This document shows positions 9,648 to 27,708 of a stretch of 52,637 nucleotides of DNA, piece by piece. A model generated the notes under the pieces. The model did not search any database. It was given only the letters and a program-made list of their open reading frames with translations, and had not been told where the DNA came from. The DNA lies in contig JAPLOM010000080.1 of assembly GCA_026400755.1 (NCBI GenBank), forward strand, positions 2,184 to 54,820, read 5' to 3'. Both the position numbers and the translations under genes were made by a program. Position 1 is the first letter of the stretch. Each line of letters starts with the position of its first letter. The stretch is from Alphaproteobacteria bacterium (lineage in GTDB: Bacteria; Pseudomonadota; Alphaproteobacteria; CADEGL01).

Positions 9648-9675
9648 AAAAAAGAGGGTGCCCGAAGGCACCCTC
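9648..9675 (-). terminator. Intrinsic terminator of the binding-protein operon
   Basis: A perfect 9-bp stem (9654-9662 with 9667-9675) is closed by a CGAA loop. Read on the minus strand, it is followed at once by six T residues (A run at 9648-9653). It sits 21 bases past the stop of the substrate-binding protein, the last gene of the 17.5-9.7 kb operon. Confidence 0.9.
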
Positions 9676-9696: not shown

Positions 9697-10956
9697 TTAC
9701 TGAACCGAGTAAATTTTCTTCGGATTTTTGCCCGGATCGAAGGTCGACGCGTCAGCGCTCACGAACTCATAGAAGGCGTACTTGAATTGCCCGCACTGGC
9801 CGGTCGGCGTGCATTTGATCCGACCACTGACGCCGTCGAACGGCGTGGTGTTGAACAAAGCGTCCCGCAGCGCCTTCCGCCCGATGTAAGTATTGCCATC
9901 CTTGTCGTGCACGGCGACCTTCTCGATGGCCAGATGCAACATCTTGGCCGCGTCGTACGCTTGGGCATGTAAGCCTTGGATCGGTTCCTCACCAAACATC
10001 GCCTTATATTTCTTGATCAACTCCGGGTATTCCTTACCCAGCGCTTCCTTGGTCACGTCCGGCATGGTGATCTTGAAACCGATGATCGCGTCGCCGGACG
10101 CCGTCATGATGTCCTTCGTCATCAGCGAACCGCCGCCGATCAAGACCTTCGGCAGGCCGGGCACTTCCTTGGCCTGGCGCGTCACGTGCCCGGCCGCGGC
10201 AACGAAGATCGGATAGTAAACGACGTCGGGCTTGGTCGCGGCAATGCGAGTCAGCACCGGGCGCATGTCCACGTCGGTTGGTGAGACGGCTTCCGAAGCC
10301 GTGATCGTACCGCCCTTCTTCTTGAACTCGGCCTCGAAGACGGCGACCAACTGTTGGGCATAGGGACTGCCATCATGGATGGTGGCGACCTTCTTCCAGC
10401 CATTGTTCTCCATGAACCACTTAACCTCATATGGCGGCTGATCGCCGTCGTTAGGGATGGTGCGGAGGAAGCCGTCGAATTGCGGGCCGCGATCGGCCGC
10501 CACAAGCCGCGGCGCCGAACAGGCCGTGCCGACCTGAGAAATCCCCTGTTTCCACAGGATAGGCGCTGTCACGGTGCAGACGCTGGAGCAGGCCGAGCCC
10601 AGGACCGCCAACATCTGCTGGTTGGCCGCGAGCTTGGTGCCGGCCAATTGGCCGCCTTCGGCATTGCAGCCGTCGTCCTCGACGATGAAGCGGATCGGAT
10701 GCCCCGCCATCTTGTTGCCGATCTGGTCGAAGTAGACCTCGGCACCGCGTTTCGAATCGAGCCCGAGCGCCGTATCGGCGCCCGAGAGGACCCAGGTGCC
10801 ACCCAGGATGATGGGCTGGCCTTTGGCGACCTTCACCACGCCGAGCGGGTCATCCACCGGACCGACCTTCACGGCGTGGGCGGGCACGGCGGCAAATGCG
10901 AAAATAGCGAACAGCGCTGACGCGGACAGCGCCGCGAACAGTCTATGACTGGTCAT
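9697..10956 (-). CDS. Branched-chain-amino-acid-type ABC substrate-binding protein
   Basis: 419 residues. A signal peptide (LFAALSASALFAIFAFAAVPAHA, here split by its cleavage after AHA) precedes a type I periplasmic binding fold of the LivK/Peripla_BP_6 class, with GGTWVLSGADTALG near the start and ASGDAIIGFKIT in the second lobe. Four Cys residues in pairs (CNAEG, GSACSSVC) suggest disulfides. Such proteins deliver amino acids, amides or aromatic acids to ABC importers, but no permease or ATPase gene is in the window. GGGGAGAAG lies upstream of ATG 10956. It is the last gene of the minus-strand operon. The ligand is likely the compound that operon degrades. Confidence 0.87.
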   Translation of the reverse strand: MTSHRLFAALSASALFAIFAFAAVPAHAVKVGPVDDPLGVVKVAKGQPIILGGTWVLSGADTALGLDSKRGAEVYFDQIGNKMAGHPIRFIVEDDGCNAEGGQLAGTKLAANQQMLAVLGSACSSVCTVTAPILWKQGISQVGTACSAPRLVAADRGPQFDGFLRTIPNDGDQPPYEVKWFMENNGWKKVATIHDGSPYAQQLVAVFEAEFKKKGGTITASEAVSPTDVDMRPVLTRIAATKPDVVYYPIFVAAAGHVTRQAKEVPGLPKVLIGGGSLMTKDIMTASGDAIIGFKITMPDVTKEALGKEYPELIKKYKAMFGEEPIQGLHAQAYDAAKMLHLAIEKVAVHDKDGNTYIGRKALRDALFNTTPFDGVSGRIKCTPTGQCGQFKYAFYEFVSADASTFDPGKNPKKIYSVQ

Positions 10957-11095
10957 CGTGCTTCTCCCCTTGGTTTGCGCCGCATTGACGTCGCACCGCT
11001 GGGCAGCACTCACCCGGTCTCGATAAGCCCAGGGTACCGCAGTTCGAAAAGCGTAGGGGCCGAAGGGCGCCGGAGTCAAACCGGCGCGAGTCGAC

Positions 11096-12268
11096 TTATG
11101 GTTTGACGAAGAGCTGACGCGGGAAGCTACAGAACGGCTCGCCGCCCTTATCCGTCACGCGGAAGCATTCGCTGATCTCGATGCCCCAATCATCCAGCCA
11201 GATACCCGGGATGCAGTGGATCGTCATGTCGGGCTTGAGGACGGTCTTGTCGCCGGGCCGGAGGCTGATCGTGTGCTCGCCCCAGTCGGGCGGATAATTC
11301 AAGCCCGTCGAATATCCGATCCGCGAATCCTTTTTGATTCCGCTTTTGGCGATGGTCGCGCGCCAGGCGCCCTCGACCTCCTCCGCCGTCGTGCCGGACT
11401 TGGCCGCAGCGAGCGCGGCGGTCAGCCCCTCCACCACCACCTTGGCGGCATCGACCATCTTTTGCGGCGGCTTCCCGAGATAGACCGTGCGCGCCATCGG
11501 GCAGTGATAGCGATGGCGCACGGCGGCCAGCTCCAGGATCGTGCCCGCGCCCGGCGCGAACTTTTCATCCGACCAGGTCAGATGCGGCGCCGAACTGCCG
11601 ATGCCGGTGGGCAACAGCGGTACAATCGAGGCGTAGTCGCCCCCATATTCCGCCGTACCGCGCGTCTGCGCGCTCAGGATATCGGCCACGGCGTCGCACT
11701 GGCGCACGCCGGGCGAGACTTTGTCGATCGCCGTCTGCATCACCTTTTCCATGATGCGTGCGGCCTGCTGTATATATTCGATCTCGCGCGGAGACTTGAT
11801 CACGCGCACCCAGTTGACCAGCGACGTAGCGTCCTTCAGGGCGGCGTTGGGCAGGTTCTTGCGCAGCGAGTCGAGGCACGCGCCGGTGAAATAGTAGTTG
11901 TCCGTTTCGATGCCGATGGCGCGCTTGTCCCAGCCGCGCGACTTCAGAAGGTCCGACACGAAGTCCATCGGGTGCTTGACCTTGGACTGAACGTAATCGT
12001 CCTGGTAGCCGATGATGTTCTTGTGATCGAGGAAGGTGGTGACCTTGGCGCCGTTGGCGTCCTGGGCGCGGCCGATCCAGATGGGCTCGTCCTGCTCGCC
12101 CGCGACGATCAACAACTGGTGAACGTAAAACGACCAGCCGTCATAGCCGGACAGGTAGTTCATGTTGGCCGGATCGGTGACCAGAAGGACTTCGATGCCC
12201 TCCTTGGCCATATGCGCTTTCGCGTTTTTGAGGCGCGTGAGATATTCCGCTTTCTCGAACGGCTTCAT
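11096..12268 (-). CDS. Creatinase/ectoine-hydrolase-like M24 family protein (DoeA-like)
   Basis: 390 residues with a creatinase N-terminal domain (1-150) and a pita-bread M24 domain. Several stretches are as I recall them from ectoine hydrolase DoeA: GYDGWSFYVHQ, SLVNWVRVIKSPREIEY, APHLTW and NYPPDWGE, ending FPRQLFVKP. The catalytic His229 is present, but the metal ligands of aminopeptidase P are lost: the first Asp is Glu246 and the second is Pro257. Metal-free C-N hydrolysis, as in creatinase or DoeA, is therefore more likely than peptidase action. DoeB/C/D partners are absent here, so the substrate may differ from ectoine. GGAGGGG precedes ATG 12268. Confidence 0.72.
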   Translation of the reverse strand: MKPFEKAEYLTRLKNAKAHMAKEGIEVLLVTDPANMNYLSGYDGWSFYVHQLLIVAGEQDEPIWIGRAQDANGAKVTTFLDHKNIIGYQDDYVQSKVKHPMDFVSDLLKSRGWDKRAIGIETDNYYFTGACLDSLRKNLPNAALKDATSLVNWVRVIKSPREIEYIQQAARIMEKVMQTAIDKVSPGVRQCDAVADILSAQTRGTAEYGGDYASIVPLLPTGIGSSAPHLTWSDEKFAPGAGTILELAAVRHRYHCPMARTVYLGKPPQKMVDAAKVVVEGLTAALAAAKSGTTAEEVEGAWRATIAKSGIKKDSRIGYSTGLNYPPDWGEHTISLRPGDKTVLKPDMTIHCIPGIWLDDWGIEISECFRVTDKGGEPFCSFPRQLFVKP

Positions 12269-12303
12269 GTTCCCCTCCCCCGTGCGGTCTCGACGACCGC
12301 GGA

Positions 12304-13479
12304 CTATTCGTAGATGCCGCGCCCCGCGGGCGTTTCTTCGCCCAGCACGCGGTCCAGGACCCAGTTGTCGATCGTGTAGACCAAAGGCTCCAGGAACGAG
12401 AGGCGGCCGGGACGCGTCAGTGGCGAGCTGATGCCGCGGTGCTGCACCGCGGAGATGTTGTTGTCTTCGTCCGCGGTCTTGTCCCAGCGCTTGTAATAGC
12501 GCTTCACCACGTCCTCGAAGTCGTTGCGCTGGGTGATCGGCTTGGGGAAGCACGCGCCGTGGATCAACTTCATCTTGTTCGGGCCCAGCGGATGGACTTC
12601 GAGATACCACATGCAGTCCTGCGTGCAGCAGAACATCGTGCTGGGATAGATGTTCGGATAGAACGAACCGTTCTGCGCACGCTCGTCGAGTGCCTGGATC
12701 TCCGGAAATCCGGTGTCGCCCGGCATGAGGGCGCGACTACCCTTCTGCTGGGTGTAGAGCAAGACGAACTCGCCCTTCACCGTCTGCACGGCCGGTTTCT
12801 TGGCCTTGTGTTTGCTGATCGTCGCCTGGTGCACGGTCGGGATGTGGTACCCCTCCATGGCGTTCTCGACGAACAGCTTCCAGTTGCAGTCCAGCAGGTA
12901 TTCCTGGCGCCGTACGGTGACCATGCCGTCCAGGTCGTGTGAGTTCAGGATGCCCGGCAGATCGCCCAGATATGACATCAACGATTCGGTCTTTGGGTCG
13001 AAGTTCACGAACATGAACCCGCCCCAGACCTCGAGCCGCACCGGCACGAGGCCGTAGTCTTCCCGGCGGAAGCCCCGCGTCTCGTCCATGTCGGGCGCGC
13101 CGCCCAGGCTGCCGTCGAGGCCATAGACCCAGCCGTGATACGGGCACTTGATCGCGCGGCAATTGCCCTGCCCCGCTTCCAGCAGCATGGCGCCTCGGTG
13201 CCGGCAGGTGTTGGCGAAGGCCCGGACCTGGTTGTCCTTGTCGCGCGTGATGATAATGGGCACGCCCGCGAACTCGAGCGCGTAATAGTCGCCGGGATTG
13301 GGGATCTGGTCGGTGCGGCCCAGGAAGTTCCACACCTTCATGAAGATGCGGTCGACCTCGCGCCGGTAGAAGGTCTCCGACGTATAGCACCAGGCCGGAA
13401 GGCTTTCGGCCTCCGCAAACGGGCGGCGCTGCGCCTCGTAGATCTTGGGATCGAAGATATCGACCGAAAACGTGTCCAT
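12304..13479 (-). CDS. Rieske non-heme iron oxygenase, alpha subunit
   Basis: 391 residues. The Rieske [2Fe-2S] ligands are Cys92/His94 (CRHRGA) and Cys112/His115 (CPYHGW). The mononuclear iron site is MEGYHIPTVH, with His212 and His217. The usual bridging Asp is replaced by Glu209, as in choline, glycine betaine and carnitine oxygenases. These enzymes hydroxylate N-methyl or C-H groups using electrons from a separate reductase, and no reductase gene is visible. It lies 35 bases upstream of the DoeA-like gene, in the same operon. N-demethylation of a quaternary or tertiary amine is the best guess; aromatic ring oxidation is less likely. Confidence 0.85.
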   Translation of the reverse strand: MDTFSVDIFDPKIYEAQRRPFAEAESLPAWCYTSETFYRREVDRIFMKVWNFLGRTDQIPNPGDYYALEFAGVPIIITRDKDNQVRAFANTCRHRGAMLLEAGQGNCRAIKCPYHGWVYGLDGSLGGAPDMDETRGFRREDYGLVPVRLEVWGGFMFVNFDPKTESLMSYLGDLPGILNSHDLDGMVTVRRQEYLLDCNWKLFVENAMEGYHIPTVHQATISKHKAKKPAVQTVKGEFVLLYTQQKGSRALMPGDTGFPEIQALDERAQNGSFYPNIYPSTMFCCTQDCMWYLEVHPLGPNKMKLIHGACFPKPITQRNDFEDVVKRYYKRWDKTADEDNNISAVQHRGISSPLTRPGRLSFLEPLVYTIDNWVLDRVLGEETPAGRGIYE

Positions 13480-13562
13480 GTCCGTCCTCGCCTGTCCCTA
13501 GGCCGTATGGCCGAAAATGCTAGCAACCCCGCGCCCTTCGCGCCAGCGACAAGGCGCGGTCG

Positions 13563-15095
13563 TCAGTCCTGCGCTCGCGGCGGCAACCGCACGAACAGCG
13601 CAAACGGTAAGACTGCCAGCGCCGTCAGTGCGATCAGGAAAAAGCTGCTGTTGTAGGCAATGATCGCGGCCTGGCGCGCGATCACGGCGTCCATGGCCGC
13701 CAGGCCGCTGCGCTCGGTCCAATCCCACAGGCGCGGCACCAGCCCCAGCTTGAACATCTCGCTGTAGGGCGACATGTACTCGCTGATGATGCCCTGATTG
13801 ATGTGCATGTTTCGGGACAGGTAGTTGAAGATGAACGCCGTACCCGTGGCCGTGCCGATGTTGGAGACCAAATAAAGCAGTGCCACGCCTTCATTTCTGA
13901 GGCGTTGCGGCAAGGTCGAGAAGCCGAAGATGACGATCGGCACATAGGCCACCCCCGAGCCGATACCCTGGACGAAGTTCGTCCAGGCCACGTCGAAGGA
14001 GCGGATGTCGAGCGAGGATTCCGACATGCCCCAGGACGAGACGATCAGGCAGCCGAAGCCGAACAAAAGGATCAACCTGGGATCGATGCGGTCCGAGACT
14101 GGAATGAGCATGAACATTCCGGCCGCCACGCCCAGGCCCCGGATGGTCAAGAGCGTGCCGACCTGCTCGATGTCGTAACCGGCCAGATCCTGCAAGAGCA
14201 ACGGGATCAACAGGACCTGCAAAAACACCACCGCGCCGTAGATGAACATAAAGGCTAGGGCGATCAGATAATTCCGGTCTCGGAACAGGGCGCGATCGAA
14301 GAACGGCGCGCGGGCGGTGACGGTGTGGACGACGAAGATATAGAACGCCACCGCGGCGACGATGCCCTCGATGACGATCTCGGTCGACGAGAACCAATCC
14401 AGCCGCTCGCCTCGATTGAGCATCATCTCGAACGCCGCGATGGCGATCGAGATGATGCCGAAGCCGAACCAATTAAAGCGGCGCTTTACGAGCTCGCGCC
14501 CGCGCGGCACGAAGGCCCAGGTGGCCAGAGCTGCCGCCACGCCGAACGGCACGCAAATGAAGAACACCCATGGCCAGCCGTAATTGTTCACCAACACGCC
14601 ACCCAAGATCGGGCCGAAAATAGAGCCCCACATGCCGCCGATGCTCCACAGCGTGGTGGCTTGGCCTTGGCGGTTGGGCGGAAAGGCATCGATGGCGATG
14701 GCCTGGCCGAGCGGGATCAGCGGCGCGCCGCTGATCCCCTGCAACGTGCGGAACAGGACGGCCTGCTCCAGCGATTCGGAAAAACCGCACAGGGTGGAGG
14801 AAATGGTGAAGCCGATGGCCGAGGCCAGGTAGAAGTTCCGCCGCCCGAAACGCACGGCCAGCCAGCCCGAGCAGGCTGTCATGATCGTGGTGCCGATGAT
14901 GAAGGCCGTAAACAGCCAGGCCATCTGGTCGGGCGCGGCGGAAAAGGCGCCCTGCATGTGGGGGATCGCGGTGCCCGAGGTGGTGACGGTCATCATGTAG
15001 ACCGTCGTGCCCAGCATGGCGGCGATCAGCGCGAGCCAGCGCACGCCCTTTTGAGGCGGATCGACGATCTGTTCGCTGGTCGTCGCCGCGGTCAT
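13563..15095 (-). CDS. DHA2-family MFS transporter (EmrB/QacA type, 14 TM)
   Basis: 510 residues with 14 predicted helices. Helix 1 ends GTTVYMMTVTTSGTAIPHMQ and loop 2-3 has GWLAVRFGRRNFY. The antiporter motif C region in helix 5 reads GPILGGVLV, typical of drug/H+ antiporters. It is placed in the middle of a catabolic operon, 25 bases after the SDR stop, so it may export a toxic intermediate or take up the substrate rather than act in drug resistance. ATG 15095 was chosen with AAGGGA upstream; the frame is open to 15263, overlapping the SDR gene. The long periplasmic loop near the C-terminus (MFKLGLVPRLWDWTE) is usual for EmrB. Confidence 0.87.
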   Translation of the reverse strand: MTAATTSEQIVDPPQKGVRWLALIAAMLGTTVYMMTVTTSGTAIPHMQGAFSAAPDQMAWLFTAFIIGTTIMTACSGWLAVRFGRRNFYLASAIGFTISSTLCGFSESLEQAVLFRTLQGISGAPLIPLGQAIAIDAFPPNRQGQATTLWSIGGMWGSIFGPILGGVLVNNYGWPWVFFICVPFGVAAALATWAFVPRGRELVKRRFNWFGFGIISIAIAAFEMMLNRGERLDWFSSTEIVIEGIVAAVAFYIFVVHTVTARAPFFDRALFRDRNYLIALAFMFIYGAVVFLQVLLIPLLLQDLAGYDIEQVGTLLTIRGLGVAAGMFMLIPVSDRIDPRLILLFGFGCLIVSSWGMSESSLDIRSFDVAWTNFVQGIGSGVAYVPIVIFGFSTLPQRLRNEGVALLYLVSNIGTATGTAFIFNYLSRNMHINQGIISEYMSPYSEMFKLGLVPRLWDWTERSGLAAMDAVIARQAAIIAYNSSFFLIALTALAVLPFALFVRLPPRAQD

Positions 15096-15120
15096 CCGTC
15101 CCTTTCCGAGGCCGTCGTCC

Positions 15121-15861
15121 TCACATACCGACAATGGCGCCGCCGCCAGACGGCGACAGGACCTGGCCCGTAATGAAATCCGCTTCCGGGCCGGCCAAGA
15201 ACGCGCAGGCATAGGCAATCTCGCGCGGCGTCGCGATCCGCCCCAAGGGCGCGACGCCGGCATAGCGCGTCTTCACCTCTTCGCTCGGCATGTCGGTATC
15301 GGTCACGCCGGGAACCAGGCAGTTCACGTTGATCCTGAAGGGCGCCAGTTCCTTGGCCCAGGCCCGGGTCAGGCCCATCATCGCCGTCTTGGAGGCGGTG
15401 TAGTGCGACATCACCCGGCTGCCGGTCATGGCCAGGTCCGAGGAGGTGTTGATGATCTTGCCCCCGCCCCGCGCCTTCATGCCCGGCAGCACGGCTTGGG
15501 CGCAGAAGAACGCGCCTTTTACCGTGACGGCGAACATGCGTTCGTAAGTGGCCTCGTCGATCTCTTCCAGCGGCAGGTAACGGCCGCTGATCCCCGCGTT
15601 GTTGACCAGGATGTCGATCGGCCCGAGCGTAGCTGAAGCGGCCGCGATCTCGGCCCTCATGCGCTTCACATCGGCGTTGTCGGCCACGATCACATGTGCC
15701 CGGCGCCCTTGCGCGCGCACGAGTGCCGCCGTCTCGTCCGCCCCATCGGCGTTCACGTCGTGGACCACGACGTCCGCGCCCCGTTCGGCGAACAGCACGG
15801 CCTCGGCACGGCCGATGCCTGCACCCGATCCGGTGATGAAGGCGACTTTGCCGTCCAGCAT
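15121..15861 (-). CDS. SDR family NAD(P)-dependent oxidoreductase
   Basis: A 246-residue classical short-chain dehydrogenase. Visible are the nucleotide motif TGSGAGIG, NNAG, and the active site Ser/Tyr/Lys with SHYTASK. Asp39 in VVHDVN favours NAD(H). The C-terminus (DFITGQVLSPSGGGAIVGM) is almost the same as in the SDRs at 16770 and 36845, so the three form one paralog group. It follows the methyltransferase stop by 3 bases and has only a weak ribosome site, so it is probably translationally coupled. It should oxidise or reduce a hydroxy or oxo intermediate of the operon's substrate. Confidence 0.87.
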   Translation of the reverse strand: MLDGKVAFITGSGAGIGRAEAVLFAERGADVVVHDVNADGADETAALVRAQGRRAHVIVADNADVKRMRAEIAAASATLGPIDILVNNAGISGRYLPLEEIDEATYERMFAVTVKGAFFCAQAVLPGMKARGGGKIINTSSDLAMTGSRVMSHYTASKTAMMGLTRAWAKELAPFRINVNCLVPGVTDTDMPSEEVKTRYAGVAPLGRIATPREIAYACAFLAGPEADFITGQVLSPSGGGAIVGM

Positions 15862-15864
15862 GGG

Positions 15865-16767
15865 TTAGCCAGGAATGCCTTTCGCCTGCGGCACCAACTC
15901 GCGCAGCCGCGCGATATGCTCTGGACCCATTCCGCAGCATCCGCCGATAAGGCGCATTCCCGTTCCGAGCCAACGGCGCGCGAAACCGGCATAGGTTTCC
16001 GGCTCCATGTCCTCACGCATATCGTAGGTCACTTCATGCCGCGTCCATTCTTCCGGCGTCGGCTTGAAGGCATTGGCATAGGCGCCTACCAACCTGTCCG
16101 TTTTCGATCGGAGCTGCGGCAAAACCGCATCGATGCTCTCCGGCGTGCAGCAATTGAAGAGAATCGCTTCGACATCGAGATCCGCGACCGCATCGACCGC
16201 GTCGGCGACGCTCTCGCCGCTGCGCAGGCGTCCCGACGCGTCGTCATGCAGGCCCCAGGCGATCCAAACGGGCTTGCCGGCGCTGGCCGCACCGAGGGCC
16301 GCCGCACGCCCTTCCATGGCGCTCGACAGGGTTTCGCCGACGAACAAATCGACGTAAGGAGCCATCGTCTGTGCGATACGGCCGTAAATCCCGGCCAGCG
16401 TCTCAAGCGGCACGTCTTCCGGACGGCCCATCAACGGAGACAGCGATCCCGCGACGAGCGCCGCGCGGCCGCTCTCCTCGCGCGCTTCGACGGCCAGCTT
16501 GCCGGCCAGACGCAAAAGCTCCTCCAGCCGCTCGCCGATGCCGGCCTTCTCCAGAATGCTGGGCACGACCATGTAGTTGTTGGCGATGATCACGTCCGCG
16601 CCGGCGCGAATGAAATCGGCGTGAGTTGCCCGCACCGCTTCCGGCGCGACCAGAAGGGCATTGACGGACCAAAGCATCTTGGGAATGGGCACACCACGCC
16701 GTTTGAGCTCGCGCCCCATGCCGCCGTCGAGAACGAGCGTCTCTCCCGCAGGCACGGCCCGGCGCAT
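15865..16767 (-). CDS. Homocysteine S-methyltransferase family protein
   Basis: A 300-residue barrel of the Hcy/BHMT/MmuM family. The start motif LDGGMGREL and the Zn-binding cysteines are present: Cys206 in NCC and Cys277-Cys278 in GGCCG. The family moves a methyl group from S-methylmethionine, betaine or another S/N-methyl donor to homocysteine. Placed between two SDRs and upstream of a Rieske oxygenase in one operon, it suggests that the degraded compound carries a transferable methyl group. It begins 2 bases after the preceding SDR stop. The donor is unknown. Confidence 0.87.
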   Translation of the reverse strand: MRRAVPAGETLVLDGGMGRELKRRGVPIPKMLWSVNALLVAPEAVRATHADFIRAGADVIIANNYMVVPSILEKAGIGERLEELLRLAGKLAVEAREESGRAALVAGSLSPLMGRPEDVPLETLAGIYGRIAQTMAPYVDLFVGETLSSAMEGRAAALGAASAGKPVWIAWGLHDDASGRLRSGESVADAVDAVADLDVEAILFNCCTPESIDAVLPQLRSKTDRLVGAYANAFKPTPEEWTRHEVTYDMREDMEPETYAGFARRWLGTGMRLIGGCCGMGPEHIARLRELVPQAKGIPG

Positions 16768-16769
16768 GG

Positions 16770-17522
16770 CTAGATTCCCACGATGCCGTCGCCGCCGTTG
16801 GGACAGATGACCTGGCCCGTGATGAAGTCGGATTCCGACGAAGCCAGGAACGCCACCGCATAGGCCGGTTCGATCGGCTGGCCCATCCGCCTCAACGGAA
16901 TCTGCGGCAGCGACTTCGCCTTCTCTTCCTCACTGCCCATGCCAGTGTCGACCCAGCCGGGCGCCACCGCGTTGACGTTGATGTTGTAAGGGGCCAACTC
17001 CTTGGCCCAGGCCTTGGTCAGGCCCAGGATCGCGGCCTTGGCGCCGCAATAATGCGACGAGTAGATCGCTCCGATCATCGCCCAGTTGGACGAAATGTTG
17101 ATGATCTTGCCCGCCTTGCGGGCCTTCATGCCCGGCACAACGGCCTTGGCGCAGAAGAACGACGCTTTCACATGCGTGTTGAACATCTTGTCGAAGTCGG
17201 CTTCTTCGAGCTGGCTCAGCAGACGGTAGTCGCCGCCGATGCCGGCGTTGTTGACCAGGATGTCGATCTTGCCCATGGCCTTGTCGGCCTTGGCGATCTC
17301 GGCCGTCATGGTCTTGATGTCGGTGACGTCGGCAATGATGACGTGGGCCTTGCGGCCCATGGCGCGCACCAGTTCGGCGGTCTTGTTCGCACCCTCGGCC
17401 TTCACGTCATGCACGATGATGTCCGCCCCGCGTTCGGCCATGAGCGTGGCTTCGGCGCGGCCCATCCCGCCGCCTGAACCGGTGATGAAAGCGACCTTGC
17501 CGTCGAGACGATGCGCGGACAT
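16770..17522 (-). CDS. SDR family oxidoreductase, first gene of the 17.5-9.7 kb operon
   Basis: 250 residues. Motifs are TGSGGGMGRAEA, NNAGIGG, SSNWAM with SHYCGAK as the YxxxK active site, and the C-terminal DFITGQVICPNGGDGIVGI. Asp in IIVHDVK favours NAD(H). ATG 17522 is chosen because GGGGGA lies 7 bases upstream; the frame is open to 17582, but that extension is unlike an SDR start. It is the promoter-proximal gene of the operon, and the 130 bases to the divergent luciferase-like gene must hold both promoters. A close paralog of the SDRs at 15121 and 36845. Confidence 0.87.
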   Translation of the reverse strand: MSAHRLDGKVAFITGSGGGMGRAEATLMAERGADIIVHDVKAEGANKTAELVRAMGRKAHVIIADVTDIKTMTAEIAKADKAMGKIDILVNNAGIGGDYRLLSQLEEADFDKMFNTHVKASFFCAKAVVPGMKARKAGKIINISSNWAMIGAIYSSHYCGAKAAILGLTKAWAKELAPYNINVNAVAPGWVDTGMGSEEEKAKSLPQIPLRRMGQPIEPAYAVAFLASSESDFITGQVICPNGGDGIVGI

Positions 17523-17652: not shown

Positions 17653-18762
17653 ATGGCCTTAACCTTCGGCACGTTCAACCTGATGCAGCGCCGCGATCCC
17701 GCTCGTACGGGCGAGACCATCTACGGCGAACTGGTGGAACAAGTGCGCCTGGCCGAGGACCTGGGTTTCTCCACGGCATGGATCGCCGAACACCATTTCA
17801 ACAATTACAGCCTGTGCCCCTCGCCGCTCATCATGTGCTCGCACCTCGCGGCGGCAACCAAGACCATTCGCATCGGTACGGCCGTGCTGGTGCTGCCGCT
17901 CTACGAGCCAGCGCGCGTGCTGCAGGAAATCGCCATGGTCGATTCCCTGTCCAACGGGCGGTTGGAACTGGGCATCGGCAGCGGTTACCAGCAATACGAG
18001 TTCGACCGCTTCCACGCCAAGCTCGACGGCGCCATGGAGATGACGGCCGAAACACTCGACATCATCGAGAAGGGCCTGACCCAGGATTCTTTCTCCCATC
18101 ACGGCAAGCATTACGACATTCCGGAAACGCGCATCGCCGTGAAACCGGTGCAGAAGCCCATGCCGCCCATGTGGGTCGCGGGCATGCTGAACAACAAGGA
18201 CATCAAGCGCCGCGTGGCGACCCGGGGCTTTACTCCCTTCCTGGCTGCGGCCCTGAGCCCCACCTCCAAGCTGCTGCCGATCCGCCAGGCCTATGACGAG
18301 GCCTACCGCGAGGCCGGCACCGATCCCATGACGCAGCCCATGGGCCTGATGCGCTATTTCCACCTGACCGACGATAAGACGGAGGCCGTGGACGCGGCCG
18401 AGCGCTGCCGCTATTCGACGCGCATCTCTCTCGCCCTCCGCCTTAACTACGCCAAGATGAACGGCCTGGTGGTCGACGACACACCGTTCAAGGACGAGCC
18501 GCCGATCGAGGAGATGATGAAGAACATGATCATCGGCGACGCCCATGCCTGCGCCCAGCGCATCATCGAGGACGTGGACGCCATGCGCGCCACCCACATC
18601 GCGCTCTACAGCCAGCCCGGCGACCTACCGCACAAGCGCGTTATGAAGTCGCTGGAAAAGTTCACGGCCGAGTGCGTGCCGCTGGTCTCCAAAGAGCTGG
18701 CCAAGCGCGGCGTGACGGTCTCGTTCGGCCCGCAATCGCAGAAGCGCTCGGCCGCCGAGTGA
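17653..18762 (+). CDS. LLM-class flavin-dependent monooxygenase
   Basis: A 369-residue bacterial-luciferase-like barrel. The N-terminus is typical (GTFNLMQRRDP) and the AEHHFNNY motif and the GRLELGIGSGYQQYEF region, which binds flavin phosphate, are visible. Members use reduced FMN supplied by a reductase to oxygenate alkanals, sulfonates or amines, or use F420. GGAG lies 8 bases upstream of the ATG. It is divergent from the seven-gene operon and convergent with the AEC carrier (1-base gap). The substrate is unknown. Confidence 0.86.
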   Translation: MALTFGTFNLMQRRDPARTGETIYGELVEQVRLAEDLGFSTAWIAEHHFNNYSLCPSPLIMCSHLAAATKTIRIGTAVLVLPLYEPARVLQEIAMVDSLSNGRLELGIGSGYQQYEFDRFHAKLDGAMEMTAETLDIIEKGLTQDSFSHHGKHYDIPETRIAVKPVQKPMPPMWVAGMLNNKDIKRRVATRGFTPFLAAALSPTSKLLPIRQAYDEAYREAGTDPMTQPMGLMRYFHLTDDKTEAVDAAERCRYSTRISLALRLNYAKMNGLVVDDTPFKDEPPIEEMMKNMIIGDAHACAQRIIEDVDAMRATHIALYSQPGDLPHKRVMKSLEKFTAECVPLVSKELAKRGVTVSFGPQSQKRSAAE

Positions 18763-19855: not shown

Positions 19856-20562
19856 ATGGGCACGAAAGTCGCCATCATTACCGGCTCCGGCCAGGGTATC
19901 GGCGCGGGCGTCGCGCGCAGTTTCGCCAACGCCGGCTACAAGGTCTCGTTGATGTCGCCGTCCGACCGCAGCGTGAAGTTGGCCAAGGAACTGGGGGGCA
20001 TCGGCCGTTCGGGTTCGATCCTGGAGAGCAAGGATCTGGCCGCCCTGGTCGACGAGACCAAGAAGACCTTCGGACGGATCGACGCAGTGGTGAACAACAT
20101 GGGACATGGCAGCGGCGCGGCGCCTTCGGTCACCGAACGGACCACTTACGATCCGGACCACTTCCATGACCCGCTCGATTTCCCCGACGAGGGCTGGCAC
20201 CAGGCGCTCGACATGTATGTGTTGAGCGTCGTGCGCATGGCGCGCGCGGTCGTGCCGGTGATGAAGCAACAGGGCGGAGGATCGATCGTGAACATCTCGT
20301 CCTTCACGGTGATCGAACCCCGGCCCGGCTATCCGCAGATGAGCGTCCTGCGCGGAACAACATCCGGATGAACAACGTGTTGCCAGGCTTCTGCGAGAAT
20401 GTGGCCATGACGGACGCGGCCAAGCGCTCGATCCCGCTCGGCCGTCAGGCGACCTTCGACGAGATCGGCCAGACCTGCGTATTCCTGGCGTCCGACGCGT
20501 CCGGCTACATCACCGGTCAGAACCTGATGGTGGACGGCGGCCTGACCCGCAACGTGCGTTAG
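19856..20562 (+). pseudogene. SDR gene broken by an internal deletion and frameshift
   Basis: The first frame (19856-20371) encodes an SDR with TGSGQGIG, NNMGHG and NISSF, up to YPQMSVLRG. The second frame (20368-20562) resumes as NIRMNNVLPGF and ends GLTRNVR, the usual SDR C-terminus. Intact relatives have about 17 more residues between these points, including the YADRYA helix after the active-site Tyr. The gene has therefore lost roughly 50 bases plus a frame at about 20360. GAGGAG precedes the ATG. Its 3' end overlaps the convergent M24 gene by 4 bases. It may be a real pseudogene or an assembly error. Confidence 0.8.
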
Positions 20563-21791
20563 CGCTTCCGCTTCGCTGTCTTCTTTTTCGCGGGCGCTTT
20601 CTTCGAAACAGCCACGCGGGCGCCCTTCAGCGGCGCCTCGGTCAGGGTGCGTGGGAAATCGGTCAGCACCTCGCGGCCATTCTCCGTCACGCGCACCGTC
20701 TCGCTGTAGCCTATGGAGTATTTGCCGGGCACTTTGAAGTACGGGATGACGTGCAGGGTCATGTTGGGCTCCAGGATCTGGGTCGAGCCTTGGTCCATGC
20801 TGAGGCCACCACGCTCAATCCAGGTCAGGAACTCGATGCCGATGCCGTAGCCGACGCGGTGGTCGAAGTATTTGCCGAAGCCGTGGCGCTCAAGCTCCTT
20901 ATGCGCGGCGAAATGGACCTCGCGGGCCTCGATGCCGGGCTTGATGGCCTTGATCGCCACTTCCAGCGCGGCTTTGGACGCATCCGACGCGCGGCGGATG
21001 GAATCCGACGCTTTGCCGACCACGGCGCAGCGGATCAACGCCGCGTCGTAGTGACGGTAGTTAGCGCCCAACTCGAAGAAGGTCATGTCACCCTTCTCCA
21101 GCTTGCGTCCGATCCAGGTGGCGTGCGCCAGGGCCGAACGCGGGCCCGAGACGATATAGCTCGGGTTGCGGATGAAATGGCTCTCGGCCTTGATGCGGGC
21201 GTGGTGCACTTCGGCGGCCACGTCGTATTCCGTGGCCCCTTCCCGCACGGCTTCAAGACCTGCCTTCATGGCCGCGCCCACGGCCTTTGCAGCCTTGCGG
21301 ACATAGACGATTTCGGCCGGCGTCTTCACCGAACGCAAAAGCTCGGCCATACCGGAGGTATCGACCAGCTTCGCCCCCGGCGCGCCGCGCAGGATGCTCT
21401 CGTAAACATCGACCAGGAACCACGGCACCTTCTTTTCGACGCCCACGGTGCGCGCGCCCAGGCCCATGTCGATCAGGCCCTTGGCGATGGCGGCGCCCGG
21501 GCTCTCGTCATCCTGATAGCCGCGGGCGGGTAGCTTGTAGGCGTTGTCGGTCGCGTTCTCGACCTCGAGCTGGCGCGTGACCAGAAGCCGCGTACCGTCA
21601 CGCTTCACGATCATGGCCTGCGGAAACGAATGGAAGCCGGTCGTCTCGTAGCCGGTCAGCCAATACTGGTTCTCAGGCCCACACAGGATGATGGCGTCGA
21701 GACCGCGCTCATCCATCTTCGCCTTCAGGCGTTCGAAGCGGCGGTCGTATTCGGCGGACGCGAACGGCAGCGACAAGGCTTTCTTGGACAT
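20559..21791 (-). CDS. Creatinase-fold M24 family protein lacking metal ligands, Lys-rich tail
   Basis: 410 residues with a creatinase N domain and an M24 domain. Metal ligands of aminopeptidase P are replaced: Asp by Glu in FFELGANYRHY, the second Asp by Ala, and the TGHG His by Tyr in VGYGIG. The likely general-base His is kept in SALAHATW, and a late Glu in YSETVRV remains. A creatinase- or DoeA-like hydrolase of an amide or ureido bond is thus more likely than a peptidase. It ends in the basic tail KKAPAKKKTAKRKR, odd for an enzyme. It lies 4 bases after the M20 hydrolase gene, so the two are probably co-transcribed and act on related compounds. Confidence 0.76.
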   Translation of the reverse strand: MSKKALSLPFASAEYDRRFERLKAKMDERGLDAIILCGPENQYWLTGYETTGFHSFPQAMIVKRDGTRLLVTRQLEVENATDNAYKLPARGYQDDESPGAAIAKGLIDMGLGARTVGVEKKVPWFLVDVYESILRGAPGAKLVDTSGMAELLRSVKTPAEIVYVRKAAKAVGAAMKAGLEAVREGATEYDVAAEVHHARIKAESHFIRNPSYIVSGPRSALAHATWIGRKLEKGDMTFFELGANYRHYDAALIRCAVVGKASDSIRRASDASKAALEVAIKAIKPGIEAREVHFAAHKELERHGFGKYFDHRVGYGIGIEFLTWIERGGLSMDQGSTQILEPNMTLHVIPYFKVPGKYSIGYSETVRVTENGREVLTDFPRTLTEAPLKGARVAVSKKAPAKKKTAKRKR

Positions 21792-21795
21792 CGTG

Positions 21796-23136
21796 TTATC
21801 CCCGGCTGAGGCTGTGGAAGACGTTGGCGCTCATCTTGATCGACTGGATGAACAGGTCAATCACCATGTTCTCGTTGGGCGCGTGGTTCTGCTCGTCCCA
21901 ATTGGCATAGGCGCTCCAGATGCAGGGCACGCCCAGCCCTTCGACAAAGGCATATTGAGGAATACTGCCGCCCAAAGCCGGCAGGATGACGGGCTCCTGC
22001 CCCGAGGCTTGGCGCGCCGCATCGGCGATGGGGCCGATGAAATTGCTGGAGGAAGGCGTGCGCGAGGGCTTCATCAGGTCGTAGACGGTCATCTCCACGT
22101 CGGTGAAGCCATTCTTCTCCAGATGGCGGCGCACGCAGGCCACGATGCGGTCCGGGTCCTGATCGACCACCAGGCGGATGTCCATCTTGGCGGTCGCCGT
22201 GGCCGGCACGATGTTGACGATGCCTTCACCGGTATAGCCCGAGACGAGACCCGAGATATTGAGGGTCGGTCGGTACATGACGCGCTCGTGGTATTCGCGC
22301 GCGGCCATGCCTTTCAACTCCTCGACTGCGAGCTGTTCGCCCATCTTCTGGCCATCGAAGGTCAGTGCTTCGAGCATTCGCACATCGTCCGGCACGATCT
22401 TGCGCACGTCGTCGTAAAAGCCTTCGATCAGCACACGTCCTTGGTCATCGCGCATGGATTGCAACGCCTGCATCAGACGCCAGCCTGGGTTGGGCACCAC
22501 GTTGCCCCGGTTGCCAGAATGGACGTCGCGGCTGGAGGTGCGGACGGACAGTTCGAATCCGACCACGCCGCGACAGCCGAGATAAATCGTGGGCCGGTTC
22601 GATTCGTGGCGCGGCCCGTCGGCGGCATAGCAGACATCGCATGACAGAAGATCGCGATGCTGCTTCACGAAACCCGGCAGGCTGGTGCTGCCCGTCTCCT
22701 CCTCGCCCTCCAGGATGATCTTGAGCGGCACGGCGGGAAGGCCGCAGGCCTGTAACGCCTCCACGGCCTTGATGTGGGCATAGTGCTGGGCCTTGTTGTC
22801 GCCCACGCCGCGCGCATAGATGCGCCCGTCGCGCTCCGTCGGCTCGAAGGGCGGGCTTTGCCAGGCCTGGTTGTCGACCGGCATCACGTCGTAGTGGCCA
22901 TAGACCAAGACGACCGGCCCCTGCCCCTTGCGCTCACCGTAAACCATGGGATTGCCGGTGGACGGCATCAGCTTCGCATCGAACCCGGCCTTGGCCAGGG
23001 CGCCTTCCAGCTTGCGCGAGCAGGCATCGACCGCCTTGGCATCGGTCGCCACGCTGGGGATGCGCAGGAACTCCTTCAGCTCTTCGATGAAGCGCGCGCG
23101 GTTGGCGTCGATATACTGGTAGGCTTGCTCGATCAT
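21796..23136 (-). CDS. M20 family metallohydrolase (dipeptidase/deacylase type)
   Basis: A 446-residue dizinc hydrolase. Visible metal and catalytic residues are His81/Asp83 (YGHYDVMP), Asp113 (VGDNKA), Glu146-Glu147 (EGEEETGS), the RDVHSGN dimerisation-domain His and a C-terminal His in NHAPNE. The family removes acyl or aminoacyl groups from amino acids and dipeptides. GGGAGGG lies upstream of ATG 23136, which gives the normal N-terminus; the frame is open to 23220. It is coupled with the metal-poor M24 gene. The substrate could be an N-acyl amine that feeds the neighbouring FAD oxidoreductases. It is divergent from the FAD array (96-base gap). Confidence 0.86.
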   Translation of the reverse strand: MIEQAYQYIDANRARFIEELKEFLRIPSVATDAKAVDACSRKLEGALAKAGFDAKLMPSTGNPMVYGERKGQGPVVLVYGHYDVMPVDNQAWQSPPFEPTERDGRIYARGVGDNKAQHYAHIKAVEALQACGLPAVPLKIILEGEEETGSTSLPGFVKQHRDLLSCDVCYAADGPRHESNRPTIYLGCRGVVGFELSVRTSSRDVHSGNRGNVVPNPGWRLMQALQSMRDDQGRVLIEGFYDDVRKIVPDDVRMLEALTFDGQKMGEQLAVEELKGMAAREYHERVMYRPTLNISGLVSGYTGEGIVNIVPATATAKMDIRLVVDQDPDRIVACVRRHLEKNGFTDVEMTVYDLMKPSRTPSSSNFIGPIADAARQASGQEPVILPALGGSIPQYAFVEGLGVPCIWSAYANWDEQNHAPNENMVIDLFIQSIKMSANVFHSLSRG

Positions 23137-23232
23137 TCGTGGCCCTCCCGTCGCGAGGACTGGATAGTAAGCAAAGGGTTCCGGCCACGCCAACTTGCCG
23201 CTCGCTCCCCCCTCTGCCATCCTCGCGTCCCG

Positions 23233-24561
23233 ATGCCTGCCTCTGCCGCCGCACCGGGTTTTAAGACAACGCCGTTCTGGCAGGACACCGCGCCGCCGCG
23301 CGAGCTTCCCGACATTCCACTGCCCAAGGACGCCGACGTGGTGATCGTCGGCTCGGGTTATACCGGCCTATCCGCCGCCCTGACCCTGGCCCGCGCGGGC
23401 AAGCGCGTGCATGTGCTGGAAGCCGACAAGTATCCGGGCGCGGGCGCCAGCACGCGCAACGCGGGTTTCGTGGGCTCCCAACTCTGGTCCAAGTTCAAAC
23501 CGCTGGCCGAAAAACTAGGCGTGGAAAAAGCCGCTGCCTACACCTCCGAGGCCGTCAACGCCCACAAGTACGTCGTCTCGCTGATCGAGCGCGAACAGAT
23601 TTCCTGCCACTACGTCCATAATGGCCGCTTCATCGCCGCCCATTCGCCCAACTCCTACGCTTCTTTGACCAAAGAAGCGGAGCTGCTGCGCAAGCATTTC
23701 GGCATCGCGTGCGAGATGGTGCCCCGCGCGTGGCAGCGGCAGGAGATCGGTACCGACTTCTTCCATGGCGGGATGATCCATCCACTCACGGGCTCGCTCC
23801 ACCCCGGCCTCTATTACGCTGGGCTGTTGGACCGCGTGCTGGCGGCGGGCGTGACCATCCACACAAAGACCAAGGCGTTGTCCATCGACCGTACGAGCAA
23901 TGGCGCGTTTACGGTCGGCACGTCGCGCGGAACACTGAGCGCCGACCGCGTGATCCTGGGCACCAATGGCTACACGGACCACACGTTCCCGTGGTTCAAG
24001 CGCCGCATCATCACGATCCACACCGCCATCGCCGTGACCGAGCCGCTCGATCCCGCCCTGATCCGCGAAGTGCTGCCCAGTGGCCGCACCTTCATCGACA
24101 CGCGAATGAATCCCGTTTCGATCCGCCCCATGCCGGATGGACGGCGGCTCCAGTTCACCGCCGCGCGCGGATTGTTCGTCAGCGACAACGAGACCAAGGC
24201 CACGGAGATCCGCAACGCCGCCGCGTTCGCGGTGCCCGCGGTCAAGGATGTGCGCATCAGCCATTGCTGGACCGGCCAGATGGGCTTCACCTTTGACAAG
24301 CTGCCCCATATCGGCGAACGCAACGGCGTACTCTACGCCATGGGCTATTGCGGGACGGGCCTGCCGATGTCGACCTGGCTCGGGCACAAGCTGGCGTTGC
24401 GCATCCTGGGCGACAAGAACGGGGCCACAGGTCTCGACGGGCGCGCGTTCCCCACACGCCCGTTCTACACGGGCAACCCGTGGTTCTTGCCGCTGATCGT
24501 CCAGTGGTACGGCCACAAAGACCGGCGCGATCTGAAGCGCGCGCGAAAAGCCTCTTCATAG
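23233..24561 (+). CDS. FAD-dependent amine oxidoreductase (DadA/PuuB type), array copy 1
   Basis: A 442-residue DAO-family flavoprotein. FAD-binding GxGxxG at residues 40-45 follows a 39-residue leader with FKTTPFWQDTAPP. The substrate/FAD core reads SHCWTGQMGF and AMGYCGTG, and the C-terminus has FYTGNPWFLP then WYGHKD. The family (gamma-glutamylputrescine oxidase, sarcosine oxidase, D-amino-acid dehydrogenase) oxidises C-N bonds of primary to tertiary amines. This is the first of six tandem copies; copies 1-3 and the gene at 40555 form subgroup A, with the same leader length. The ribosome site is weak at ATG 23233. Confidence 0.88.
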   Translation: MPASAAAPGFKTTPFWQDTAPPRELPDIPLPKDADVVIVGSGYTGLSAALTLARAGKRVHVLEADKYPGAGASTRNAGFVGSQLWSKFKPLAEKLGVEKAAAYTSEAVNAHKYVVSLIEREQISCHYVHNGRFIAAHSPNSYASLTKEAELLRKHFGIACEMVPRAWQRQEIGTDFFHGGMIHPLTGSLHPGLYYAGLLDRVLAAGVTIHTKTKALSIDRTSNGAFTVGTSRGTLSADRVILGTNGYTDHTFPWFKRRIITIHTAIAVTEPLDPALIREVLPSGRTFIDTRMNPVSIRPMPDGRRLQFTAARGLFVSDNETKATEIRNAAAFAVPAVKDVRISHCWTGQMGFTFDKLPHIGERNGVLYAMGYCGTGLPMSTWLGHKLALRILGDKNGATGLDGRAFPTRPFYTGNPWFLPLIVQWYGHKDRRDLKRARKASS

Positions 24562-24579
24562 CGCCCGGGAGGCGTAGCC

Positions 24580-25899
24580 ATGCCGGATATGATGCTGACG
24601 CCCGATTTCAAGAACACGCCCTATTGGTGGGAGGCTGCGCCTCGGCCCGACTTAGGCGAGAAGCCGCTGCCCAAGGAAACCGACGTGGCCGTGGTGGGCT
24701 CCGGCTTCACGGGCTTGTCGGCGGCGCTGACCCTCGCGCGCGGAGGTAAAGGCGTCACGGTGTTCGAGGCCGAGACGCCCGGCTATGGCGCCAGCACGCG
24801 CAACTCCGGCTTTGTCGGCTGCCAGCTCTGGTCAAAGCTGACGCCGCTCGTGAAGAAATTCGGTGAAGAACGCGCATCGGTCCTAGCGCGCGAGGCCATG
24901 TCGGCCCACGACTATGTTGTCTCGCTGATCGAGCGCGAGCAGATCGCCTGCCATTTCACCTATTGCGGCCGCCTGATCTCGGCGCATTCGCCGGCAGCCT
25001 ACGAGACGCTGGAGCGCGAACTGGCCCTCATGCAGCGGCTGTTCGGCTTCGAGGGCCACATGGTGCCGCGCGACCAGCAGCGCACGGAGATCGTCACAGA
25101 CCTTTATTACGGCGGCATGATCGTGAAGAAGGGTGGCTCGCTGCATCCCGGCCTTTACCACGCAGGCCTGCTCGACCGCGCCATGGGCGCGGGCGCTGTG
25201 GTTCATGGCAAGACCCCGGTTCTCTCCATCGAGCGTGAGGCGTCCGGCCGCTTCCGCGTCACCACGCCGCGTGGCGTGGTCTCCGCCGGGCGCGTCATCC
25301 TGGGTACCAACGGCTATACGGGCAAAGGACTAGACTGGTTCCGCCGCCGCTTGATCCCCGTCCACGCCGGCGTGGTCGTGTCCGAGGAGATCGGTGCCGA
25401 ACGGGTGCGCAGCGTTCTGCCCACCGGGCGCACGATGATCGACACGCGCATCAACCCCTATTCGGCTCGTCCCTCGCCCGACGGCGCGCGCCTGCAGTTT
25501 GCCTCCGCGCGCGGCCTGTTCGTGCGCGACTACCCGGCCAAGGCCATGGAGATGCACCGCGCCATGGTCGAGACCTTTCCCACCATGCGTGACGTACGCA
25601 TCGCCTATTGCTGGACCGGCCAGATGGGCTTCAGCTTCGACAAACTGCCGCATGTGGGCGAGCGTGACGGCGTGCTGTACGCGCTGGGTTATTGCGGCAC
25701 CGGTATTCCGATGGCGACCTGGCTTGGCCACAAGCTGGGGCAGCGGGTTCTCGGCGCGCCAGACAGCGGCTCGGCCCTCGATGGCCGCGACTTCCCCACG
25801 CGCCCGCTTTACACCGGCAATCCTTGGTTTTTGCCGCTCGTCATCAAATGGTACGGTCACAAGGACAAGCGCGGCGTGCCCGCGCGCAAGGCTGCCTAG
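24580..25899 (+). CDS. FAD-dependent amine oxidoreductase, array copy 2 (subgroup A)
   Basis: 439 residues. Leader FKNTPYWWEAAPRP, then VVGSGFTGLSAAL at the same position as in copy 1. Core motifs are AYCWTGQMGF, FDKLPH and ALGYCGTG; the end is LYTGNPWFLP and WYGHKD. GGGAGG lies upstream of the ATG and the gap to copy 1 is 18 bases. It is the closest relative of copy 1 in the window. N-terminal secretion is not indicated, so it should act in the cytosol, passing electrons to oxygen or to a quinone. The substrate is unknown; divergence between copies suggests different amines rather than dosage. Confidence 0.88.
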   Translation: MPDMMLTPDFKNTPYWWEAAPRPDLGEKPLPKETDVAVVGSGFTGLSAALTLARGGKGVTVFEAETPGYGASTRNSGFVGCQLWSKLTPLVKKFGEERASVLAREAMSAHDYVVSLIEREQIACHFTYCGRLISAHSPAAYETLERELALMQRLFGFEGHMVPRDQQRTEIVTDLYYGGMIVKKGGSLHPGLYHAGLLDRAMGAGAVVHGKTPVLSIEREASGRFRVTTPRGVVSAGRVILGTNGYTGKGLDWFRRRLIPVHAGVVVSEEIGAERVRSVLPTGRTMIDTRINPYSARPSPDGARLQFASARGLFVRDYPAKAMEMHRAMVETFPTMRDVRIAYCWTGQMGFSFDKLPHVGERDGVLYALGYCGTGIPMATWLGHKLGQRVLGAPDSGSALDGRDFPTRPLYTGNPWFLPLVIKWYGHKDKRGVPARKAA

Positions 25900-25907
25900 G
25901 GGGAACC

Positions 25908-27224
25908 ATGTCCGCCGATATCTTCGCGCCGGGTTTCAAGACCGATCCCTATTGGTGGGAAGCTGCACCACGCCCGCAGACGCCGGCCAAGCCATTGCCC
26001 ACCGAAGCGGACGTGGTGATCGTGGGCTCGGGCTATACCGGCACGTCGGCCGCTCTCACGCTCGTGCGCAACGGGCGCGGCGCCCTGCTGCTGGATGCGG
26101 AAGATCCTGGATACGGCGCGTCGTCACGCAACGCGGGCTATGTCGGCCGCACCCTGTGGCACAAATTCGAGCCGCTCTCGCGCAAATACGGCAAGGAGGC
26201 CGGCAAGGATTTGGCCAGCCAAGCCGTCGAGGCGCACAACTATGTGGTCAACCTGATCGAGAAGGAACAGATCCGCTGCCACTTCAAGTACACCTCGCGC
26301 TTCATCGCCGCGCACACGCCCAGCCACTACAAGAAACTGACCAAGGACTACGACAAACTGCGCGACGCGGGCATCGAGATGAACGTCGAGATGGTGCCCA
26401 AGGAACGGCAGCGCGAAGAGATCGGTTCGGACCGCTATCACGGCGGCGTCCTTCTGCACGGCGCGGGCGCGGTTCACCCGGGCCTGTACCATTTGGGATT
26501 GCTTGAACGCGCGGTCGCCTCTGGCGCCGAGGTGCATGGCCGCACCAAGGTGACCAACATCGTTCGCGAGAATGACGGCCGTTTCACGGTAACGACCGCG
26601 CGCGGCACGGTGCGCGCCAAGGACGTGATCGTGGCCACCTGCGGCTATTCCGGGCCGGAGGTGAAATGGTTCCAGCACCGCATCCTGCCCATCAAGCTGT
26701 TCCAGATTGCGACCGAGCCCCTGCCCAAGGAAACGCTCGACCGTCTGATTCCGCGCGGGCGCACGCTGATGGACAGCAAGATCAACATCTACTGGTTCCG
26801 CCGCTCGCCCGACGACACGCGCATCATCGTCGGCGGCCGCTGCGGCACGGAAGACGGCGGGCCGCTGGACAAGGCCCAGGTGCTGCACGAAGCCATGACC
26901 GAGGTTTTCCCGGAACTGAAGAGCGTCAAGCTCACCCATTGCTGGGAAGGACAGACGGGGCTCTCCTTCGACGAGTTACCCCACATCGGCACCCATGACG
27001 GCGTCCACTACGCCATGGGTTACTGCGGCGTCGGCATGCCCATGGGCACGTATCTGGGCAACAAGGTCGGTCTCAAGGTGCTGGGCAAGCCCGAAGGCAA
27101 GACGCCATTCGACGGCAGGCCCTTCCCCGGCCGTTCTTATTATTGGGGCCGGCCGTGGTTCGTGCCGTTCATCATGGCCTATTACAACTTCATGGACTGG
27201 TGGGACCGCTTTACTTCCAAATAA
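25908..27224 (+). CDS. FAD-dependent amine oxidoreductase, array copy 3 (subgroup A)
   Basis: 438 residues. Leader FKTDPYWWEAAPRP; VIVGSGYTGTSAAL; core THCWEGQTGL, FDELPH and AMGYCGVG. The conserved Thr-Gly-Gln-Met of copies 1 and 2 reads Glu-Gly-Gln-Thr here, and the C-terminal segment is YYWGRPWFVP followed by a hydrophobic helix rather than WYGHKD. It is thus the most divergent of the first three and may have a different substrate. GGGGGA lies 5 bases before the ATG, and the gap to copy 2 is 8 bases. It is followed by the lower-GC insert at 27.2-27.7 kb. Confidence 0.87.
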   Translation: MSADIFAPGFKTDPYWWEAAPRPQTPAKPLPTEADVVIVGSGYTGTSAALTLVRNGRGALLLDAEDPGYGASSRNAGYVGRTLWHKFEPLSRKYGKEAGKDLASQAVEAHNYVVNLIEKEQIRCHFKYTSRFIAAHTPSHYKKLTKDYDKLRDAGIEMNVEMVPKERQREEIGSDRYHGGVLLHGAGAVHPGLYHLGLLERAVASGAEVHGRTKVTNIVRENDGRFTVTTARGTVRAKDVIVATCGYSGPEVKWFQHRILPIKLFQIATEPLPKETLDRLIPRGRTLMDSKINIYWFRRSPDDTRIIVGGRCGTEDGGPLDKAQVLHEAMTEVFPELKSVKLTHCWEGQTGLSFDELPHIGTHDGVHYAMGYCGVGMPMGTYLGNKVGLKVLGKPEGKTPFDGRPFPGRSYYWGRPWFVPFIMAYYNFMDWWDRFTSK

Positions 27225-27237
27225 TTAGCGCTATGGC

Positions 27238-27537: not shown

Positions 27538-27694
27538 AATCCTGTCGGTGTCCTCGGGGAGGGTTTGAATCTCAAGTGTCCAGACGGGGATAAGTGAACC
27601 TGAAAAAGCCTTTTAGTTCTTTAAGTCGATCATCCGCGCCTCCATTCAAGTTCTTATTTTGTTCTCAACACAAAAGGGCGTCTAGAGACCGATG

Positions 27695-27708
27695 ATTTCC
27701 TAGGAAAT
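27695..27708. promoter_or_regulatory. 14-bp perfect palindrome, candidate operator
   Basis: ATTTCCTAGGAAAT is its own reverse complement and lies 19 bases before the ATG of FAD copy 4 at 27728, where no Shine-Dalgarno sequence is visible. A dimeric regulator could bind here and control the second half of the array. It is only a positional and symmetry argument. Confidence 0.4.

Follow-up and report, generated by a model that had tools for sequence, protein, structure and literature searches.

The most unusual fact of this analysis is an expansion of the M24 hydrolase family in an order of Alphaproteobacteria, one member of which lies in a putative catabolic operon. The operon was examined in a stretch of 52,637 nucleotides (the window; contig JAPLOM010000080.1, positions 2,184 to 54,820) that is part of a 3.36 Mb, 87-contig genome (G000), and its seven genes encode two short-chain dehydrogenase/reductases (SDR1 and SDR2), a homocysteine S-methyltransferase-like protein (HMT), a DHA2-type major facilitator superfamily (MFS) transporter, a Rieske oxygenase alpha subunit, an M24 hydrolase (M24A) and a substrate-binding protein (SBP). 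We conclude that the operon probably breaks down a small nitrogen-containing molecule, by enzyme activities that are predicted from sequence and structural models.

The window genome carries 33 M24 genes, whereas our class sample (75 other families) has a median of 3 and no family above 15; their density is 9.8 per Mb, compared with a sample maximum of 3.6. In the genome set used, the order comprises one family and five genomes, the window genome included; the other four carry 34–39 M24 genes each. In 23 of the 33 genes of the window genome, which are DoeA-like and include one broken copy, Glu occupies the first ligand position and the metal set is lost. Rieske genes are also frequent (~15–20 in the window genome), a number that is high yet not unique within the class; the two expansions are uncoupled genome-wide, with a Rieske gene within four genes of 5 of 34 M24 hits (the 33 genes, one of which is split). 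Some M24 genes of the order stand in tandem arrays. A comparable case is that of the SAR202 paralog expansions (PMC6946804), in which an uncultured lineage likewise expanded oxidative families, including ring-hydroxylating dioxygenases and flavin monooxygenases; the outlier here, in contrast, is metal-free M24, in Alphaproteobacteria, and the SAR202 main text is silent on M24. We tentatively propose, at somewhat less than even confidence, that the order has radiated a metal-free DoeA fold into at least 20 hydrolases per genome, and that the operon represents a new aerobic pathway in which an M24 hydrolase, a Rieske oxygenase with an Ala-x-Glu motif and a luciferase-like flavin monooxygenase (LLM) act on nitrogen compounds other than ectoine.

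M24A and the ectoine hydrolase DoeA

M24A aligns with DoeA end to end, and its AlphaFold model (pLDDT 92) superimposes on substrate-bound DoeA with a TM-score of 0.97 and a root-mean-square deviation of 1.4. M24A shares with DoeA/EutD (PDB 6twk, TIGR02993; 46% identity) the pita-bread fold, the PPDWGE motif and the loss of the metal ligands. In both, Glu-Pro-Tyr stands where prolidase has Asp-Asp-His, and the M24A residues that correspond to the five prolidase metal ligands are Glu246, Pro257, Tyr319, Ile353 and Ser366 (signature EPYIS, vs. EPYMT for DoeA and DDHEE for prolidase). These features, together with identities of 47% to Halomonas DoeA, 57% to a Caballeronia DoeA located in a full ehu/eut/doe cluster and 62% to a Priestia M24 protein encoded beside eutB and a cyclodeaminase gene, raise the alternative that M24A is a true DoeA/EutD and that the operon degrades ectoine or 5-hydroxyectoine, with the other genes feeding or finishing that pathway. 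M24A, however, scores 557.6 bits against the curated DoeA model TIGR02993, below the cut-off of 613, and falls outside the 100/100 clade of five DoeA references in a tree in which some deep nodes are weak; of the 207 columns that are invariant in DoeA, 131 are retained and 30 differ consistently, including GEHT in M24A vs. GERT in DoeA. Moreover, the operon contains no doeB/eutE gene and no Eut or Ehu/Ueh genes; doeB/eutE homologs elsewhere in the genomes are below the cut-off, and in the 4-kb loci examined no M24A relative had a DoeB homolog beside it. A recent survey of ectoine gene clusters makes no mention of Rieske enzymes (PMC13188858). We therefore regard ectoine degradation as a distinctly unlikely function. 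The first-pass annotation, which was made from the window's letters alone, had called the protein a creatinase/DoeA-like hydrolase, and it is indeed DoeA-like and lacks metal ligands. By the anatomy of the model, M24A would work like DoeA, and it should not be filed as DoeA.

The Rieske oxygenase, its electron supply and the methyltransferase

The Rieske protein contains the [2Fe-2S] ligands C92/H94/C112/H115 and the iron ligands H212/H217/D339, and alignment with CntA and Stc2 places Glu209 at the bridging position, confirming the Glu bridge of the first-pass annotation. A profile of four Rieske sequences searched against PDB gave CntA and Stc2 higher scores than aromatic dioxygenases, and the same two proteins are the top Foldseek matches of the AlphaFold model (mean pLDDT 91). 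Stc2 (3vca, stachydrine demethylase) and CntA (6y8j, carnitine monooxygenase) are group V enzymes that share with the window protein the metal ligands, the bridging Glu and a TM-score of 0.75–0.80; they differ from it in sequence (~25% identity), in the residue at the Tyr203/Asn position and in their FNR-type reductase partner, which was not found in the window genome.

The residue two positions before the bridging Glu is diagnostic in group V: Tyr/Phe in Va or Asn in Vb (PMC7948474). The window protein departs from this rule, with Ala207 at the position of CntA Tyr203; Ala is found there in all four orthologs and in 35 of the 39 homologs that are 50–60% identical. These observations bear on the possibility that a group V Rieske enzyme demethylates a quaternary ammonium compound of the carnitine, glycine betaine, stachydrine or hydroxyproline-betaine type and that HMT takes a second methyl group. 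Such a function is suggested by the bridging Glu and the Stc2/CntA fold matches, by a proline racemase gene in the cluster of a related genome (SI072_bin169, below), and by loci in three genomes at which HMT adjoins Rieske paralogs with Phe at the Ala207 position (Phe-x-Glu). It is opposed by the Ala in all orthologs, by a GbcA model score of 161.7 (cut-off 670), by the absence of CntB-like and PF00175 matches from the window genome, and by a sister locus without HMT. We consider this reading unlikely, and the quaternary-amine or betaine substrate of the first-pass annotation is weakened because Ala stands at the diagnostic position in all orthologs.

HMT itself matches PF02574 at 208 bits, and its zinc-cysteine motifs NC and GGCC align with those of T. 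maritima MetH; in domain and cysteine motifs it resembles MmuM and BHMT, whereas it scores below the cut-offs of both (144.7 vs. 215 for MmuM; 86 vs. 338 for betaine-homocysteine BHMT) and is not kept at the sister locus. For these two reasons methyl transfer to homocysteine, a proposal for which HMT was the main basis, is not supported as a core step. Among marine bacteria, single-enzyme betaine-homocysteine methyl transfer has been proposed for SAR11 only (PMC12478193). HMT relatives on plasmids show no Rieske link, the MmuM-like genes there adjoining amine, sugar or unrelated transporters.

Degradation of an aromatic ring by a ring-hydroxylating dioxygenase would accord with the match of the Rieske alpha subunit to aromatic dioxygenases at the general family level. 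We rejected it as highly improbable: the locus has neither a beta subunit nor a ring-cleavage gene, the bridging residue is Glu and not Asp, and the solved structures closest in fold, Stc2 and CntA, act on quaternary ammonium compounds. Across 80 related Rieske loci, about half have a 2-hydroxyacid dehydrogenase family member adjoining or nearby; parts of amino-acid ABC transporters and DUF1989 proteins are common there too, rather than ring-cleavage genes. These neighbourhoods do not look like aromatic metabolism.

The Rieske oxygenase probably depends for its electrons on a single, shared GR-type ferredoxin reductase rather than on a dedicated partner of the CntB/GbcB type. A search for the FNR-type NAD-binding domain PF00175, which recovered 10 of 14 positive controls, gave no match in the window genome, and neither did a search with E. 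coli YeaX (CntB-like) that was run without a positive control; the C-terminal domain of GR-type ferredoxin reductases (PF14759) occurs exactly once (contig C42, 47420–47671). From this inventory, in which a single GR-type reductase stands alongside ~15–20 Rieske genes, a shared three-component electron supply is likely.

Gene order and conservation

The open reading frame (ORF) list and a codon-usage gene caller agree on seven minus-strand genes with gaps of 2, 3, 25, 83, 35 and 139 bases (Table 1), as first annotated, and Pfam and NCBIfam confirm their domains. The strong terminator described after the last gene is present, and the sister genome retains it with one pair changed in a compensatory manner from T-A to C-G. 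An Rfam scan of the window gave no matches. The LLM gene divergent from SDR1, not part of the operon as first annotated, should be counted with the seven-gene set.

Table 1. Features of the locus, in window coordinates
Feature	Position	Strand	Evidence
LLM, luciferase-like flavin monooxygenase, divergent from SDR1	17653..18762	+	
SDR1, short-chain dehydrogenase/reductase	16770..17522	-	ORF, Pfam
HMT, homocysteine S-methyltransferase-like	15865..16767	-	PF02574, NC and GGCC cysteine motifs
SDR2, short-chain dehydrogenase/reductase	15121..15861	-	ORF, Pfam
DHA2-type MFS transporter	13563..15095	-	Pfam, efflux EmrB subfamily cut-off passed
MFS–Rieske gap, 45 identical bases in two species	13480..13562	-	Interspecies alignment
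Rieske oxygenase alpha subunit	12304..13479	-	Pfam, alignment, AlphaFold model
M24A, DoeA-like metal-free pita-bread hydrolase	11096..12268	-	NCBIfam, alignment, tree, model
SBP, periplasmic amino-acid/amide-type binding protein (Peripla_BP_6)	9697..10956	-	
Rho-independent terminator	9654..9675	-	9-pair stem, TTCG loop, T6

Comparison of gene content over the sister genome (metagenome-assembled genome RBC064, G001), SI072_bin169 (G003) and casp40-mb.210 (G004) identifies Rieske and M24A as the stable core of the locus, which LLM and SDR1 often accompany. The Rieske and M24A genes are adjacent in four of the five genomes of the order, two of which represent the window's own genus. In the sister genome, contig C5 carries SBP, M24A, Rieske, MFS, a TrkH gene and the end of SDR2, and on contig C6 LLM and SDR1 diverge, with SDR2 following SDR1 after 19 bases; contiguity of SDR1-SDR2-TrkH-MFS is probable, not proven, because both contigs break within SDR2. 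The sister orthologs of SDR1, SDR2 and MFS are 94%, 91% and 91% identical to those of the window. SDR1 and SDR2 are tandem duplicates (62% identical) that have HMT between them in the window species; HMT is not between them in the sister, where the best match is a 52% paralog elsewhere, and so is not kept even within the genus. The order in SI072_bin169 is LLM, SDR1 (60%), proline racemase, more LLMs, Rieske (71%) and M24A (65%), and that in casp40-mb.210 is LLM, Rieske and M24A; LLM thus adjoins the Rieske–M24A pair in these two genomes, and is divergent from SDR1 in the window and the sister. MFS and SBP are seen in the genus only, a statement restricted for the other genomes by short contigs: neither is on the 11-kb Rieske–M24A contig of SI072_bin169, which stops just past M24A, so that a downstream SBP is possible.

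The seven-gene unit of the first-pass annotation is therefore not conserved whole: order and strand in the window agree with it, whereas the sister lacks HMT there and has TrkH between SDR2 and MFS. Likewise, of the combination of Rieske, M24 and HMT genes that was to be sought in other genomes, the first two recur together and the third does not recur with them. It could be argued that two unrelated units, SDR1-(HMT)-SDR2 and MFS-Rieske-M24A-SBP, simply lie end to end. The intervening TrkH gene and the lack of MFS and SBP on the SI072_bin169 contig are consistent with such an arrangement, as are 45 identical bases just upstream of Rieske, in species whose aligned DNA is ~88% identical; this stretch is a candidate internal promoter or operator. 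All genes nevertheless lie on one strand and in one order in both species as far as the contigs go, and SDR1 recurs less than 11 kb from Rieske-M24A in another genus. We judge two separate units to be improbable, about to the same degree as quaternary-amine demethylation.

Proposed pathway, related loci and significance

The bridging Glu, the Stc2/CntA matches, the DoeA-like M24A and the neighbours of the relatives all indicate that a small nitrogen compound is probably degraded, as first proposed. We give about an even chance to the more specific reading that the operon serves the catabolism of a small polar nitrogen-containing zwitterion, for example an osmolyte (N-methylated or cyclic-amidine) or an N-acyl amino acid derivative. 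The gene set with its order and conservation, the loss of metal ligands, the bridging Glu, the fold matches and the reductase inventory were computed; from them we infer every reaction and the substrate class. The substrate would be captured by the amino-acid-type SBP; the Rieske oxygenase and LLM would oxidise or dealkylate the ligand next to nitrogen; SDR1 and SDR2 would oxidise the alcohol or carbinol product; and M24A would open a ring or cleave an amide via a Glu nucleophile, metal-free. HMT may be a lineage-specific add-on, probably for methyl-group salvage, and the DHA2 carrier would more likely export a product or toxic intermediate than import the substrate. The uptake once assigned to this carrier is not supported, because the MFS protein passes the cut-off of the DHA2 efflux EmrB subfamily (TIGR00711; 320.5 vs. 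230.2 bits).

Several points weigh against the zwitterion reading. None of the homologs of the gene set has been assigned a substrate; a trimethylammonium substrate is made less likely by the Ala at the quaternary-amine position; the transporter is of the efflux type; the operon holds no ABC permease or ATPase partner for SBP, whose solved-structure matches are generic Leu/Ile/Val-type proteins that point to no ligand; and the gaps of 83 and 139 bases, with the 45-base stretch as a possible internal promoter, leave co-transcription putative. The role of Glu as nucleophile in M24A is carried over from DoeA. A described set of Rieske, DoeA-like and methyltransferase genes was not found in the literature, of which few subscription papers were reachable; to that extent the set matches no described pathway, and the first-pass annotation had recognised none either. 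Overall, that interpretation is partly supported, and its betaine and methyl-transfer parts are not.

Independent support comes from two loci of other Alphaproteobacteria. L068 encodes DUF1989, a related Rieske protein, a 2-hydroxyacid dehydrogenase, M24, GntR and LLM, and L075 a similar set with DUF1989 further upstream; their M24 proteins are distant and also metal-free (ECYIG), and neither M24 nor LLM is orthologous to that of the window, so that the functional combination recurs with non-orthologous enzymes. Loci L052–L059, from Acetobacteraceae and Rhodospirillales metagenome-assembled genomes and Oceanibaculum, have Rieske genes, often paired, with DUF1989, amino-acid ABC transporters, flavin reductase and M20 peptidase. 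The loci at which HMT adjoins a Phe-x-Glu Rieske paralog (L153, L154 and L155) represent a candidate second methyl-compound pathway; a domain scan confined to L153 found an E1 dehydrogenase pair, a lipoyl-domain protein and an RraA-like aldolase. Elsewhere in the window (20559–31649), a second metal-free M24 gene (M24B, 20559–21791) has as neighbours an M20 peptidase gene and five or more genes for FAD-dependent amine oxidases (DAO); the sister genome retains M24B, M20 and the adjacent DAOs. An SDR reading frame at 19856–20562 is broken into two frames that overlap, of 171 and 64 aa, and is intact in the sister (250 aa).

If the proposed radiation is real, ectoine hydrolase would represent a single branch within a wide family of metal-free amidohydrolases, and annotation of such genes as ectoine hydrolase or Xaa-Pro peptidase would mislead. 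The Rieske class that combines a Glu bridge with Ala would form a new, testable specificity group, and the metal-free family would help uncultured bacteria to use dissolved organic nitrogen.

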